Shown: piece by piece, positions 26,017 through 41,100 of the stretch
Layout of the letters: the number at the start of each line of letters is the position of its first letter
Numbering within the stretch: the first letter of the stretch is position 1
NCBI GenBank assembly: GCA_016841875.1
Contig: JAENYG010000005.1
Coordinates: 124,001-188,000 of the forward strand
Source of the DNA: Syntrophomonas sp.
GTDB taxonomy: Bacteria > Bacillota > Syntrophomonadia > Syntrophomonadales > Syntrophomonadaceae
DNA length: 64,000 bases
Reading direction: 5' to 3'
Made by a program: the position numbers and the translations under genes
The notes under the pieces: generated by a model
What the model saw: only the letters and a program-made list of their open reading frames with translations
Database searches by the model: none
Told to the model about the DNA's origin: nothing

Positions 26017-26040
26017 AACAGTAATCAAATAAATAAATGC

Positions 26041-26286
26041 AGAGAACGGGATAAGTAGGACTTTTATCGCTGCCAGAGAGAAGGGGTCACCGGCTGAGAG
26101 CCTTTTCACAGTAAGAGATCGTCTGAATCTGCGCCCGGGAGCAGGTATGCTGAATATAATGGTAGGCATATCCGGTTGAACCGTTATGAAATGAAGTGGA
26201 GTATATGAATTATTTATATACTCAAGTAGAGTGGAACCACGGAAGTATAGCCTTTCGTCTCTAAGGGAGACGGAAGGCTTCTTTTA
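26041..26286 (+). ncRNA. T-box riboswitch leader, cysteine specific
   Basis: The conserved T-box core GTGGAACCACGG is at 26231-26242, and the intrinsic terminator (stem AGCCTTTCGTCTC / GAGACGGAAGGCT, then TTCTTTTA) is at 26249-26286. In the stem-I region GTCTGAATCTGCGCC, the specifier fits TGC (26130-26132), a Cys codon, in agreement with the serine acetyltransferase and cysteinyl-tRNA synthetase genes downstream. Uncharged tRNA-Cys would bind and prevent termination. Confidence 0.9.
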
Positions 26287-31665: not shown

Positions 31666-31741
31666 GCCGAGCTAGCTCAATCGGTAGAGCAGCTGATTTG
31701 TAATCAGCAGGTTGCGGGTTCAAGTCCTGTGCTCGGCTCCA
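31666..31741 (+). tRNA. tRNA-Thr (TGT)
   Basis: Seven-base acceptor stem GCCGAGC/GCTCGGC, anticodon arm GCTGA-TTTGTAA-TCAGC with anticodon TGT, T-loop TTCAAGT, encoded CCA end. 76 bases. Confidence 0.97.
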
Positions 31742-31755
31742 AAAATGAATTTCTT

Positions 31756-31840
31756 GGAGGGATACCCAAGCGGCCAAAGGGGGCAGACTGTAAATCTGTT
31801 GGCGACGCCTTCGAAGGTTCGAATCCTTCTCCCTCCACCA
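31756..31840 (+). tRNA. tRNA-Tyr (GTA)
   Basis: Acceptor stem GGAGGGA/TCCCTCC, long variable arm typical of bacterial tRNA-Tyr, anticodon loop CTGTAAA (GTA), encoded CCA. 85 bases. Confidence 0.97.
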
Positions 31841-31847
31841 TGATCAA

Positions 31848-31923
<76 letters not shown>

Positions 31924-31940
31924 TGAATTATTATTCCCAA

Positions 31941-32035
31941 CAGGGAATTGAGATAAGTAGTCCCCGCAAGGGGGCAACCAAAAAAATTCATTCTCACAGG
32001 GAATTGAAATAAGTAGTCCCCGTAAGGGGCAACCA
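31941..32035. repeat. Two direct repeats, period 56, between tRNA genes
   Basis: CAGGGAATTGAGATAAGTAG followed by a TCCCCGCAAGGGGG hairpin and CAACCA (31941-31980) recurs with few changes at 31997-32035. Both copies end in GCAACCA, as does the preceding tRNA-fMet, so the unit may have copied the tRNA 3' end. Confidence 0.7.
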
Positions 32036-32044
32036 TGTATATTT

Positions 32045-32120
32045 GCCCTTATAGCTCAGTCGGCAGAGCGCATCCTTGGTAAGGATGAGGTCACCGGTTC
32101 AAGTCCGGTTAAGGGCTCCA
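32045..32120 (+). tRNA. tRNA-Thr (GGT)
   Basis: Acceptor GCCCTTA/TAAGGGC, anticodon arm CATCC-TTGGTAA-GGATG (GGT), T-loop TTCAAGT, encoded CCA. 76 bases. Confidence 0.97.
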
Positions 32121-32124
32121 TCCG

Positions 32125-32201
32125 GGCGGCGTAGCTCAGCTGGCTAGAGCATACGGTTCATACCCGTAGTGTCAGGGGTTCGAATCCCTTCGCCGCTACC
32201 A
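32125..32201 (+). tRNA. Elongator tRNA-Met (CAT)
   Basis: Acceptor GGCGGCG/CGCCGCT, anticodon arm TACGG-TTCATAC-CCGTA (CAT), encoded CCA, 77 bases. The body closely resembles Bacillus elongator tRNA-Met; a CAT-anticodon tRNA-Ile2 is less likely. Confidence 0.92.
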
Positions 32202-35939: not shown

Positions 35940-36090
35940 ACTAATCAACAACTGCAAATTGAAGCTTTAGACAGCCGGTGGCCGATGCCTTAAAGAACAA
36001 AAGTTCGCCTGCCGAGGTTATGATATAAATACTGATTATTTAGTAGTCAATATTCAACCTCTGCACGTCTGCGGAGGTTTTTGATTTGTA
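35940..36090 (+). ncRNA. L10 (rplJ) leader RNA
   Basis: The gap between rplA and rplJ holds the elements of the Firmicute L10 leader: CAACAACTGCAAATTGAAGC, AGACAGCCGGTGGC and CCTGCCGAGGTT, ending in an attenuator hairpin AACCTCTGC/GCGGAGGTT followed by TTTTT (36056-36085). The L10-L12 complex would bind here and stop its own synthesis. Confidence 0.75.
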
Positions 36091-36140
36091 GTAAGAAGTA
36101 AATGCAAGGTAAAGATGATAAAAAGGGGGTGAAATTAGAA

Positions 36141-36697: not shown

Positions 36698-37069
36698 ATG
36701 AGTAAAGTGCAGGAAGTTATCGATATCGTCAAGGAATTAACAGTTCTTGAATTATCTGAATTGGTTAAAGCGTTGGAAGAAGAATTTGGTGTAAGTGCTG
36801 CTGCTCCGATGGCAGTTGCAGCTGCACCTGCAGCTGCGGCTGAAGCTGTAGAAGAACAAACCGAATTTGATGTAATACTGACTTCTTCAGGAGAGAAGAA
36901 GATTAATGTTATTAAAGTCGTGCGAGAAATTACAGGTCTGGGACTGAAAGAAGCTAAAGCTCTAGTTGATGAAGCTCCCAACCCGGTAAAAGAAAAAATA
37001 AACAAAGAAGAAGCCGAAGCCATCAAGGCTAAAATTGAAGAAGCTGGCGGAAGTGTAGACGTAAAATAG
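36698..37069 (+). CDS. rplL: Ribosomal protein L7/L12
   Basis: 123-residue acidic stalk protein. N-terminal dimerisation segment, Ala-rich hinge ('[17 protein letters not shown]') and the factor-binding domain '[20 protein letters not shown]' with '[16 protein letters not shown]'. Followed by a strong terminator. Confidence 0.98.
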
Positions 37070-37091: not shown

Positions 37092-37124
37092 AAAAGAGGT
37101 GCCTGTACAGGCACCTCTTTTTTA
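37092..37124 (+). terminator. Terminator after rplL
   Basis: A perfect palindrome AAAAGAGGTGCCTG-TA-CAGGCACCTCTTTT ends in T-rich sequence; a canonical Rho-independent terminator. Confidence 0.85.
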
Positions 37125-37200
37125 ATAGGACACGGGGACAGGTTCCTTGTCCCATCCTCAATTCAAAAAGTGGGACAAGGAACCTGTCCCCGTGTCCTAT
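37125..37200. repeat. REP-like perfect 30-bp inverted repeat (GGGACAGGTTCC type)
   Basis: Arms at 37125-37154 and 37171-37200 are exact complements (core GGGGACAGGTTCCTTGTCCC) around a 16-base spacer. This G-rich repeat resembles elements dispersed in many clostridial and other genomes and mobilised by REP-associated transposases. It lies directly behind the rplL terminator. Confidence 0.75.
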
Positions 37201-37228
37201 TCTTGTAGATAAGAATTACTCTTTATAG

Positions 37229-37255
37229 TTGAATTCCACTATTTTCTGGTATAAT
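37229..37255 (+). promoter_or_regulatory. Candidate promoter of the exported protein gene
   Basis: TATAAT (37250-37255) has an extended TGG before it and TTGAAT 15 bases upstream; the extended -10 can offset the short spacer. Confidence 0.55.
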
Positions 37256-37296
37256 CTTAAATAATGATATTTTTCATGGAGAGGGGGGGATTAGAT

Positions 37297-37989
37297 GTGA
37301 ATAAATATATTCTAGCGATATTTATGGTTTGGTTAATCGTGTTAGGTTTTACCCCTGCAGCTCTGGCTGGACAATACGAATGGCAGTTGGTAACTGACCA
37401 ACAAGGTAATATTCATGAAACGCTGAGCATACAGGATTCAGAGCCAAGTCTTAATACCGATGGATGGGATTCTAGCAGCGGGGATGGAATACTAAAACTG
37501 GAACGGGTTCATAGAGACTGGTATCAATACAGTGCGAAATCAAATGGACTTCCCATAAAAACTGAAGTCAAAAACTATTTAATATTTTCAACTACTACGC
37601 TAAGTTATGATAATCAATCCAACCAGCACAACCTGTTCAACGAACTGGTATCTAACGTGGATGGAGATATTAGTATTCAAGCAGCAGGTATCATACAAGA
37701 GAGTTCGGCTTCGGAAGCAAATAATCTTGACCAGGATCCTACTGCTATCTGGCATTTGACAGCGGAACAAGGGAAAAATACCGTGGCGCAAGCACCCATA
37801 TTTTTGCAAGTAATTACCTTTAACGGGCTGGTGATTAGTTTAACCATTTTGCTGTTCGGATTTATAGGCATAACCATATGGTATCTAACTTATATCAGAC
37901 GAGTCAACAAATTGATTGCGGAAGAATATTCTCTGACTAATATTGAAAAATTATTAGAAAAAGACGAAGAAGAAAAAGAAAATGATTAA
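37297..37989 (+). CDS. Unknown exported, membrane-anchored protein
   Basis: I do not recognise this 230-residue protein. It starts with a signal peptide ('MVWLIVLGFTPAALA', cleavage probable after Ala-Leu-Ala), followed by an extracellular domain of about 140 residues rich in Gln, Asn, Ser and Trp ('EWQLVTDQQGNIHETLSI'), one membrane helix near 175-197 ('LVISLTILLFGFIGITIWYL'), and a charged cytoplasmic tail 'EKDEEEKEND'. GTG 37297 is chosen for the GAGGGGGGG site. It sits between rplL and rpoB, which are normally adjacent, with its own promoter and a REP-like repeat, so it looks inserted. Confidence 0.8.
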   Translation: MNKYILAIFMVWLIVLGFTPAALAGQYEWQLVTDQQGNIHETLSIQDSEPSLNTDGWDSSSGDGILKLERVHRDWYQYSAKSNGLPIKTEVKNYLIFSTTTLSYDNQSNQHNLFNELVSNVDGDISIQAAGIIQESSASEANNLDQDPTAIWHLTAEQGKNTVAQAPIFLQVITFNGLVISLTILLFGFIGITIWYLTYIRRVNKLIAEEYSLTNIEKLLEKDEEEKEND

Positions 37990-38004
37990 AATAAGCTGAT
38001 TAGC

Positions 38005-38031
38005 TTGACGACTAAGAAGTATTGTGATAAT
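38005..38031 (+). promoter_or_regulatory. Candidate promoter of rpoB-rpoC
   Basis: TTGACG with GATAAT 15 bases on; a second -10-like TATAAT lies at 38055-38060. Either would give rpoB its own promoter after the inserted gene, with a leader of 100-130 bases. Confidence 0.45.
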
Positions 38032-38163
38032 ATTAGTACTTGCCATTTGCATTGTATAATGGTGCATTTATGGCTGAGTTTAGAGCTTGGACTTGAAAGC
38101 GAGGTTTACCAAGGAGCCTTGCTTTTCACTCTTTTAGGAAATTTTATAAGGGGTGAGCATCAG

Positions 38164-41100
38164 TTGCCAAAAATTGAGGAATACGGAAAAAGTAAAAGGT
38201 TAGGTTATTCACGAATTGAAGAACCAATCGACCTGCCAAACCTTATTGAGATTCAACTCAGTTCATACAAGTGGTTTCTTAAATCAGGTCTGCGTGACGC
38301 CCTCCAAGAAGTCTTTCCTATTTCTGATTTCACCGGGAATCTTGAACTAGACTTTATCGATTACAGCTTGGGAGATCCCAAGTATGATGTAAACGAATGT
38401 AAAGAAAGAGATGTAAGCTTTCAAGCACCGCTTAAGCTTAAGGTGAGATTGACTGACAAGGAAAATGGGGAAATAAAGGAATCTGAAGTCTATATGGGCG
38501 ACCTGCCGTTAATGACTGATAAGGGGACTTTCATAATCAATGGTGCGGAACGGGTGGTTGTAAGCCAGCTGGTTAAGTCACCCGGGGTTTATTTTAGCGA
38601 GCGTTTCGATGTGGCTGGAAACAAATTATTTGGAGCAACCATTATACCCAACCGGGGAGCCTGGTTTGAACTTGAAATGGATAGTGCAGGTATAATATAC
38701 ACTAGAATTGACAAAACCAGAAAAATACCGGTATCAGTACTGCTGAGATCTATTGGATATGAAAGTAATCAAGATATTTTAGATTTGTATGACAATCATG
38801 ATACGATCGCGCGCACTCTGGACAAGGATACTACCAACAACAAAAAGGAAGCCTTGATCGAGTTTTATAGAAGATTAAGGCCCGGAGAAATGGCTACCGA
38901 AGACGCGGCTGAGCAGTTATTAAAGAACTTGTTCTTTGATCCCCGCCGCTATGATATGGCTATCGTAGGACGCTATAAAGTGAATAAGAAATTGAAGCTG
39001 AATATCCCGGAGGAAGTCAGATATCTTACTCTGGAGGATATTACTTCAACTATTGGCTATCTGCTTAAATTAATAAACGGGGAAGGGAAAACCGATGTTA
39101 TAGACCATCTGGGCAACAGAAGGTTAAGGTCTATAGGTGAGCTCCTCCAGAACCAGTTTAGAACTGGTCTCGTTAGAATGGAGAGAGTAGTACGAGAAAG
39201 AATGAGCATTCATGATGTAGAAACCCTTACTCCCCAGGTTTTGATTAATATCAGGCCAATTACTGCTGCGGTTAAGGAGTTTTTTGGCAGCTCACAGCTT
39301 TCCCAGTTCATGGACCAAACTAATCCACTGGCAGAATTAACTCATAAAAGAAGACTCAGCGCCCTGGGCCCCGGAGGGTTGACCCGGGAAAGAGCAGGGT
39401 TTCAGGTAAGGGACGTTCACCATTCTCATTATGGCAGAATATGCCCCATAGAAACTCCAGAAGGACCTAATATCGGATTAATAGGTTCGCTGGCTACCTT
39501 TGGTAAAGTAAATGATTTTGGATTTATTGAGACCCCTTATAGAAAAGTAGACAAAGAAGCTGGACGTGTGATGGATGTGATTGATTACCTGTCAGCTGAT
39601 GAAGAGGAAGAGTATCATATCGCCCAGGCTAATGCCCCCCTGGACGAAGATGGATATTTTATTGAAGAGCGGGTAGAGGCCAGGTTTGGGGAAGAAATTA
39701 TGGAAATACCAGTCAGCCGGGCGGATTACATGGATGTCTCCCCTAAACAGGTATTCAGCGTAGCTACTTCATTAATACCCTTTCTCGAGAACGATGATGC
39801 TAACCGGGCTTTGATGGGTGCCAACATGCAGAGGCAGGCGGTACCACTGGTAAAAACAGAAGCACCTATTGTCGGTACTGGTCTTGAGTACAAGGCGGCC
39901 AAAGATTCTGGAGCAACTGTCATTACGAAAAATTCGGGATTAGTAACCAACGTCAGCGCAGATAAAATAGTGATACAAACCGACCAGGGTGCAAAAGAAA
40001 AACATAATTTACATAAATTTGTCAGGTCTAATCAGGGAACCTGTTATAACCAGAGGCCTATTGTGCAAGTGGGCGAAAGAGTAGAGGCCAACACCATTAT
40101 TGCGGATGGACCAAGTACCGATTTTGGCGAACTGGCACTGGGTCGTAATGTATTGGTTGCTTTCATGCCCTGGGAAGGATATAACTACGAAGACGCGATT
40201 CTTATTTCTGAAAAGCTAGTTAAGGATGATGTTTTTACATCTATTCATATAGAAGAATATGAGTGTGAAGCAAGAGATACCAAACTAGGTCCCGAGGAGA
40301 TAACCAGGGATATTCCCAACGTATCTGAAGATATGCTGAAAAACCTGGATGACCAGGGTGTTATCAGAATCGGAGCTGAAGTTAGGCCAGACGATATTTT
40401 GGTAGGAAAAGTTACACCCAAAGGTGAGACCGAGCTTACTCCAGAAGAGAGGTTGCTGCGGGCCATATTTGGAGAAAAAGCCCGTGAGGTAAGAGACTCT
40501 TCCTTGAGGGTACCCCATGGTGAAGCGGGTAAGGTGGTTGCGGTTAAGCGTTTCTCACGGGAAAAAGGTGATGAATTACCACCTGGCGTTAATCAGCTGG
40601 TCAGAGTTTATATAGCTCAGAAGAGAAAAATATCTGAAGGCGATAAGATGGCCGGAAGGCATGGTAACAAAGGGGTTATATCTAGAATTTTACCAGAAGA
40701 AGATATGCCCTTCCTGGAAGATGGAACTCCAGTTGAAATAGTCTTGAATCCGCTGGGGGTGCCATCTCGAATGAATATCGGGCAGATACTGGAGTGCCAT
40801 ATGGGTTGGGCTGCTAAGAAACTGGGATTGAAAATTGCTACTCCGGTTTTTGATGGTGCTTCAGAAGATGATATATTTGAGGCGCTGAGGAAAGCAGGAC
40901 TGCCTGAAACCGGTAAAATGGTGCTCTTGGATGGTAGAACCGGGGAGCGTTTTGATCAGAATATAACGGTTGGATATGTCTATATGCTTAAACTGGCTCA
41001 TCTGGTTGATGATAAGATCCATGCCAGATCCATTGGACCCTATTCCCTGGTTACCCAGCAGCCGCTGGGAGGTAAAGCTCAGTTTGGAGGCCAGAGATTC

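Follow-up and report, generated by a model that had tools for sequence, protein, structure and literature searches.

Organization of the rplL-rpoB interval

The window, i.e., the whole stretch of 64,000 nucleotides that was analyzed, corresponds to positions 124001 to 188000 of contig C31 of genome G000 (3.97 Mb). Its translations, read in order, place nusG, rplK, rplA, an L10 leader, rplJ, rplL, an open reading frame (ORF) which is here termed X, rpoB, and rpoC in succession, where rplJ was identified by Pfam, the leader by Rfam, and the remaining genes from their translations. Elsewhere in the window, a T-box leader is located at positions 26033 to 26265 (Rfam, 125.7 bits), and five tRNA genes (Thr, Tyr, Met, Thr, and Met) are clustered at 31666 to 32201. 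The features of the interval and its flanks, with the evidence for each, are as follows.

35947 to 36093, + strand: L10 leader (RF00557) of rplJL; 54.4 bits against a gathering threshold of 44
36698 to 37069, + strand: rplL (L7/L12); ORF named from its translation, orthologs found
37092 to 37121, + strand: intrinsic terminator of rplJL; perfect 15-bp arms followed by a T-run, z -6.0
37124 to 37201, no strand assigned: REP doublet forming a hairpin (REPIN), 31-nt arms and 16-nt loop; folding and genome-wide copies
37229 to 37255, + strand: promoter-like site of X, TTGAAT-15-TATAAT with TGG before the second hexamer; sequence and scoring
37297 to 37989, + strand: X, with signal peptide, LppM-like ectodomain, one membrane helix, and cytosolic tail; ORF, relatives, profile, and models
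37375 to 37821, + strand: ectodomain of X (amino acids 27 to 175), LppM/DUF3153-like predicted fold; profiles, Foldseek, and VIA
37828 to 37887, + strand: membrane helix of X (amino acids 178 to 197); hydrophobic stretch by eye, helix in both models
37888 to 37941, + strand: juxtamembrane motif RRVNxLIxEEYSLxN of X (amino acids 198 to 215); best-conserved stretch
38005 to 38047, + strand: rpoB promoter TTGACG-17-TAATAT (extended -10) with TGA before the second hexamer, plus start region ATTAGTACTTGCCATT
38096 to 38125, + strand: rpoB leader hairpin AAAGCGAGG...CCTTGCTTT; folding, upstream survey, exact pattern, and alignment
38126 to 38156, + strand: second stem, TCACTCTTT (38126 to 38134) with AAGGGGTGA (38148 to 38156), covering the rpoB ribosome-binding site; RNAalifold, 22 sequences
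38164 to 38166, + strand: rpoB start codon (TTG); ORF frame and ortholog matches

A sequence-only reading of this interval had described a terminator, a perfect repeat, a promoter, an exported single-pass protein, and a further promoter candidate between rplL and rpoB. The terminator is present with perfect arms, just outside the start of the region given for study (37125), and a hairpin of -11 kcal/mol or lower precedes a T-run after rplL at 22 of 23 loci, a count which includes the present locus and was made without a shuffled control. Promoter-like sites were likewise recovered on both sides of the ORF (37229 to 37255 and 38005 to 38033), and its product bears the signal peptide and single membrane helix expected of an exported single-pass protein. 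The repeat is indeed perfect, being 100% complementary, but it is inverted rather than direct and its arms are 31 nt long.

Promoter and leader of rpoBC

The rpoB promoter, whose hexamers span positions 38005 to 38033, was recovered as a pattern at 55 of 56 loci of the order (mononucleotide shuffles, 0.5), with the exception of G001, and at 30 of 30 loci from other families (mononucleotide shuffles, 0.24), the latter not representing a random sample because they were reached through the leader model. The start region, as TTGC[CG]AT, was present at 54 of 56 order loci and at none of the 30 loci from other families, 16 of which carry a looser form. Within the order, the start region TTGCCATT (38034 to 38047) is thus about as conserved as the promoter itself. 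Across 29 aligned X-rpoB gaps, a shared arrangement was apparent, consisting of cTTGAC-N-TGnTAnnATtAnTAnTTGCcATT, a variable linker, AGCgaGGTT..CCTTGCTTTTCaCTctTT, and aAGGGGTGA; a single, mismatch-free copy of TAAYATTARTAMTTGCCATT lies in the window, and at up to three mismatches 11 of 100 shuffles also matched. Both promoter and leader are retained in the three genomes read (L135 to L137) of the X-less sister family f2, and in X-less relatives belonging to other families.

The exact pattern of the hairpin at 38096 to 38125, AAGCGAGG-N7-24-CCTTGCTT, was found in 100 of 398 phylum genomes, mostly as a single copy, with the reversed pattern yielding 8 matches. Among the approximately 108 places at which the pattern occurs, the presence of rpoB was checked at 30, many from related genera, and at others which are among the covariance-model and order loci; 28 of the 30 lie ahead of rpoB. 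A covariance model matched 116 of 398 phylum genomes at an E value of 0.01 or lower, which is not to be taken as a count of rpoB leaders since generic hairpins occur among the low-scoring matches. Of the 30 best loci, 26 lie ahead of rpoB and 4 are without it; of 40 further loci, 20 lie ahead of rpoB and 20 are without it. By a tally of the loci read, rpoB-linked cases occur in 17 families besides the order.

When up to two changes per arm were permitted, the hairpin was present in 83 of 88 rpoB upstream regions, some of which had been reached through the hairpin model itself; the five upstream regions without a match all belong to one family and carry AAAAGCAGG..CCT(T/C)GCTTTT. The G-C pairs at positions 4, 8, and 9 are fixed in 83 of 83 sequences and a G-U pair is kept at position 6 in 76 of 83, the latter being more readily reconciled with an RNA stem than with a DNA dyad. 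Covariation lends weak support because the outer stem hardly varies: both partners are changed in 2 of 20 pairs, and the proportion of paired cells is 97.7%, compared to 97.1% in column shuffles; pairing of the inner stem is modestly above that of shuffles. Rfam 15 gave no match to the leader in the window or at 14 loci beyond a chance match (E value of 0.85; 15.3 bits versus 66). A literature search returned no paper on the hairpin or on X, which does not show that none exists.

Two further elements near the hairpin were noted. In family f14 (L156, L157, L159, L162, and L168), a second similar stretch, approximately GGGAATAnTAnAnAGATGnnGGAT, is visible by eye between the promoter and the hairpin. 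A boxA-type antitermination site at CTCTTT after the hairpin was considered and set aside; the 16S leader of the same genome (L139), judged by eye, differs there.

The second stem, in which 97.0% of cells are paired across 22 sequences, is not a general property of the leader. Among 57 upstream regions of the order, 46 have its arm and 11 lack it, and the arm was found in 0 of 30 from other families; on the sequences compared, it is a property of most of the order.

The main rival to a factor-binding leader RNA is a leaky terminator, whereby the hairpin at 38096 to 38125 would function as an intrinsic attenuator whose read-through sets the level of RNA polymerase and which also stops transcripts arriving from X. 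A terminator-like site is listed at the hairpin in the window, and the stem is usually preceded by A residues and followed by approximately four T residues, often with more T residues further on. However, only about four T residues precede other bases, they can pair with the upstream A residues, and the fixed sequence of the stem appears to exceed what a terminator needs. We regard such an attenuator as possible rather than probable.

Distribution and genomic position of X

X encodes 230 amino acids from the GTG at 37297, which is preceded by a G-rich ribosome-binding site, or 241 amino acids from the ATG at 37264, and in either case ends at 37989. The best-scoring -10 element of X lies 30 to 46 nt ahead of its start at 25 of 29 loci (own locus included; without a shuffled control). 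Of the 54 family genomes, 43 were matched by a single-sequence search with X and 45 by a 17-row profile, while in the sister families the profile matched 0 of 5 genomes in f2 and 1 of 4 in f3. Against 398 phylum genomes, the profile gave 14 matches, comprising 12 within the family and 2 weak ones among the 382 genomes outside the order, neither of which is flanked by rplL or rpoB in the 1.5 kb examined to either side.

X is located immediately upstream of rpoB at all 30 loci first fetched, with rplL upstream of X at 24 of these, including one (L055) at which rplL lies approximately 1.4 kb away with other ORFs between. No rplL was found within the 1.5 kb read upstream of X at L043, L044, and L060, other genes occupy the rest of the contig upstream of X at L056 and L057, and the sequence of L059 ends at X. 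Because other genes are situated upstream at L043, L044, L056, L057, and L060, it is evident that X keeps to rpoB even without an adjoining rplL. From a second set of 28 loci, a further 14 family genomes were found to carry all or part of X ahead of rpoB, as was G061 of f3. Nine family genomes gave no match. In G001, 337 nt devoid of any X-like ORF separate rplL from rpoB, and G019 and G031 carry a different sequence ahead of rpoB; the region is masked in G028, G051 and G052 end at rpoB, and no rpoB start was found in G011, G012, and G023.

The dN/dS values of X against two congeners (0.16 and 0.17; 0.02 and 0.05 for rplL) indicate moderate constraint on X and hence a genuine gene. The family-wide occurrence of X and its constant place ahead of rpoB rule out a recent insertion: X has long been established in this bacterial family. 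The occurrence of the same gene at this place throughout Clostridia, which the sequence-only reading had named as the observation that would count against an insertion, holds within the family and does not extend to wider Clostridia (1 of 9 sister-family genomes).

Reduced forms were also encountered at the X site. In the family genome G034, a 109-amino-acid protein retains a signal peptide, a membrane helix, and an RLIDEYYSLE tail with no ectodomain, and in G062 and G059 (f3) ORFs of approximately 57 and 72 amino acids consist of a membrane helix and an RxxxLIEE tail. G030 displays the opposite loss, namely, a piece of the ectodomain without the tail. The forms in G034, G062, and G059 hint, as far as their sequences go, that the helix and tail may matter most, and the small f3 ORFs could be unrelated to X.

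Architecture and predicted fold of X

The membrane helix of X is located near the C-terminal end and is followed by a short, charged tail, as judged by eye. Pairwise column identity is 0.56 in the juxtamembrane motif versus 0.32 in the ectodomain, and the YSL of this motif is invariant in 17 of 17 rows. The sequence-only reading had taken the protein to be of unknown family, and single-sequence Pfam and NCBIfam scans bear this out in assigning it to none; profile and fold comparisons make that statement less apt. Pfam LppM was detected weakly in 4 of 17 X members (best E value of 0.012; 16.3 bits against a cutoff of 27), although the X protein of the window itself gave no LppM match and no member reached the curated cutoff; unrelated families outscore LppM in one member each, i.e., CD34_antigen (E value of 0.0011) and FtsL (E value of 0.0066). 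A PF21946 search of the own genome gave no match, a PDB sequence search returned nothing at an E value of 1 or lower, PHROGs gave one weak match to a protein of unknown function (E value of 0.0028), and PADLOC gave none. The two distant phylum matches of the X profile outside the order were L109 (E value of 1.2e-4), a DUF3153 protein (24.5 bits, above the cutoff of 21.4), and L110 (E value of 6.1e-4), which is LppM-like (23.6 bits, below the cutoff of 27).

Two AlphaFold models were compared with known structures, that of the window X protein (pLDDT 60) and that of a relative (pLDDT 75). For both, the sole PDB match reported by Foldseek at an E value of 0.001 or lower was the LppM domain of Mycobacterium tuberculosis (E values of 2e-4 and 5e-6 for the two models; probability of 1.00), with TM-scores of just 0.34 to 0.44. 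In VIA, the better model aligned to LppM with a Z score of 8.9 and an rmsd of 4.3 over 126 residues, the next row having a Z score of 6.9, and for the weaker model LppM was tied at a Z score of 6.5 with oligosaccharyltransferase and aminopeptidase domains. The ectodomain of X is, on these models, likely to be LppM/DUF3153-like in its predicted fold, while it remains below the curated Pfam score for membership. X is an uncharacterized membrane protein that offers a likely fold and a well-defined motif for testing.

A functional tie between X and RNA polymerase or rpoB expression, in which the inner motif would recruit or sense a partner encoded by the flanking genes and X would for that reason stay before rpoB, would account for the family-wide position, including at the five loci without an adjoining rplL, for the inner motif being the best-conserved part of the protein, and for the small helix-plus-tail ORFs kept without an ectodomain in three genomes (L127, L128, and L131). 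Yet X may have remained close to rpoB through inertia, the resemblance of the small ORFs of L128 and L131 is confined to a generic RxxxLIEE tail, the ectodomain piece of G030 lacks the tail altogether, and rpoB is found without X in G001, G019, and G031. We consider this tie unlikely.

A dispersed inverted repeat after rplL

The arms of the repeat following the rplJL terminator (37124 to 37154 and 37171 to 37201) are predicted to form a hairpin of -63.4 kcal/mol (z -13.0). Its half-site has two matches in the window at up to three mismatches, both at this doublet (0.01 expected). In the genome, with as many as two mismatches allowed, 56 and 51 matches fall on the two strands, against 0 for the reversed control; one half-site can count on both strands because it is nearly palindromic. 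When rows with no or one mismatch were counted and their partners were allowed up to two, G000 was found to harbor no fewer than 24 inverted doublets and 7 singles; of 18 distinct sites read, 15 showed the same doublet architecture. Inverted doublets that are separated by a spacer, form a hairpin, and are dispersed over the genome are the features of a REPIN, and the repeat of G000 matches the arrangement of inverted REP doublets set out in PMC3116915. MicroRNA and other Rfam families matched the REP at scores far below their gathering thresholds, and these were set aside as chance matches on a long hairpin.

The genome contains eight Y1 transposase (Y1_Tnp) genes. The sole one bracketed by this REP is located at positions 1244 to 2214 of L097 (contig C22 of G000); it is apparently broken and, judging by its sequence, is perhaps the decayed partner of these REPs. 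At the X site, the repeat is common to close species only: the closest congener (L032) has what appears to be a decayed remnant of the doublet, L033 has a doublet that belongs to a different REP class, and no REP doublet occurs in L034 or L035. In the sister family f2, REP-like stretches (GAACCGTCCCCTTGACACC) were observed in the rplL-rpoB gap of G054 (L136, positions 915 to 1488), and this gap may thus be a repeated landing site for REPs.

It is conceivable that the doublet insulates rplL from X with respect to transcription or supercoiling, as it directly follows the terminator and a doublet of another class occupies the same place in L033; its absence from two congeners, its apparent decay in a third, and the scattering of copies over the genome render this very improbable. 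The same missing or varying doublet in congeners also rules out the REP as the cause of any uncoupling; it is the younger element.

Interpretation of the interval

Separate control of rpoBC is likely because rplJL ends in a terminator and rpoBC has its own promoter, and on this anatomy control separate from that of rplJL is plausible. The earlier proposal, that an insertion may have uncoupled rpoBC from L10/L12 control, is upheld as to the separate control but not as to the insertion as its cause. That X uncoupled rpoBC in this lineage agrees with a terminator ahead of X and a promoter behind it but is scarcely credible given the promoter and leader of X-less families and the family-wide place of X before rpoB. 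The start signals of rpoBC are older than X, and X did not cause the separate control; recognizing the supposed insertion as an old resident avoids a wrong account of recent uncoupling.

It is considered probable that three separate things share the rplL-rpoB gap, namely, the promoter and leader of rpoBC, the family-specific X, and a REPIN which lies outside the control circuit. We propose that transcription of rpoBC begins at an ancient extended -10 promoter of its own and yields a 5' leader carrying a near-invariant hairpin. This leader would most likely gate the expression of beta and beta' at the RNA level, as set by a factor that binds the hairpin, for which RNA polymerase or an associated factor would be the natural candidate. 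X would be a family-specific single-pass membrane protein, probably separately promoted, placed just ahead of the rpoB promoter. LppM/DUF3153-type domains bind lipids, and the LppM-like outer domain of X may bind a lipid or envelope ligand, while its conserved inner motif may bind a cytosolic partner. The REPIN would have settled in the noncoding gap within the genus.

A more specific proposal is offered tentatively. The element AAAGCGAGG...CCUUGCUUU may constitute an undescribed, phylum-wide RNA through which RNA polymerase, or a factor that travels with it, senses its own level and tunes beta and beta', to which a second-stem translational gate would have been joined in most of the order and a membrane protein, in front, in one family. 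The regulation of core RNA polymerase levels has been well studied in E. coli; to our knowledge, it is little known in Firmicutes. The near-fixed hairpin ahead of rpoB offers a concrete and easily mutated candidate for such control.

Comparison with known systems

G000 resembles REPIN/RAYT systems in its inverted hairpin doublets scattered over the genome and in the presence of Y1 genes, and it differs in that its single REP-bracketed Y1 gene looks broken. The ectodomain of X is similar in predicted fold to the LppM domain (PF21946; M. tuberculosis Rv2171, PDB 2nc8) and to DUF3153 (PF11353), whose distant representatives L109 and L110 share, by eye, the X-like order of signal peptide, domain, and membrane helix. 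The RRVNxLIxEEYSLE cytosolic motif and the place ahead of rpoB, in contrast, are specific to the family of X.

With regard to the leader, the Lacto-rpoB RNA motif (RF01709), which is named in a table of PMC2864571, is likewise a conserved RNA ahead of rpoB in Firmicutes, and its two matches among the 398 genomes (one above the cutoff) adjoin rpoB. It is a different RNA: neither match belongs to this order, the 400 nt around them contain no AAGCGAGG hairpin, RF01709 is absent among matches up to an E value of 10 in window positions 38000 to 38180, and G000 has no match to it. The L10 leader (RF00557) is a leader RNA of the same gene cluster, but it precedes rplJ and the rpoB leader falls outside Rfam families. 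In its conserved position and structure ahead of one gene, the rpoB leader corresponds to what is seen for cis-regulatory leader RNAs.
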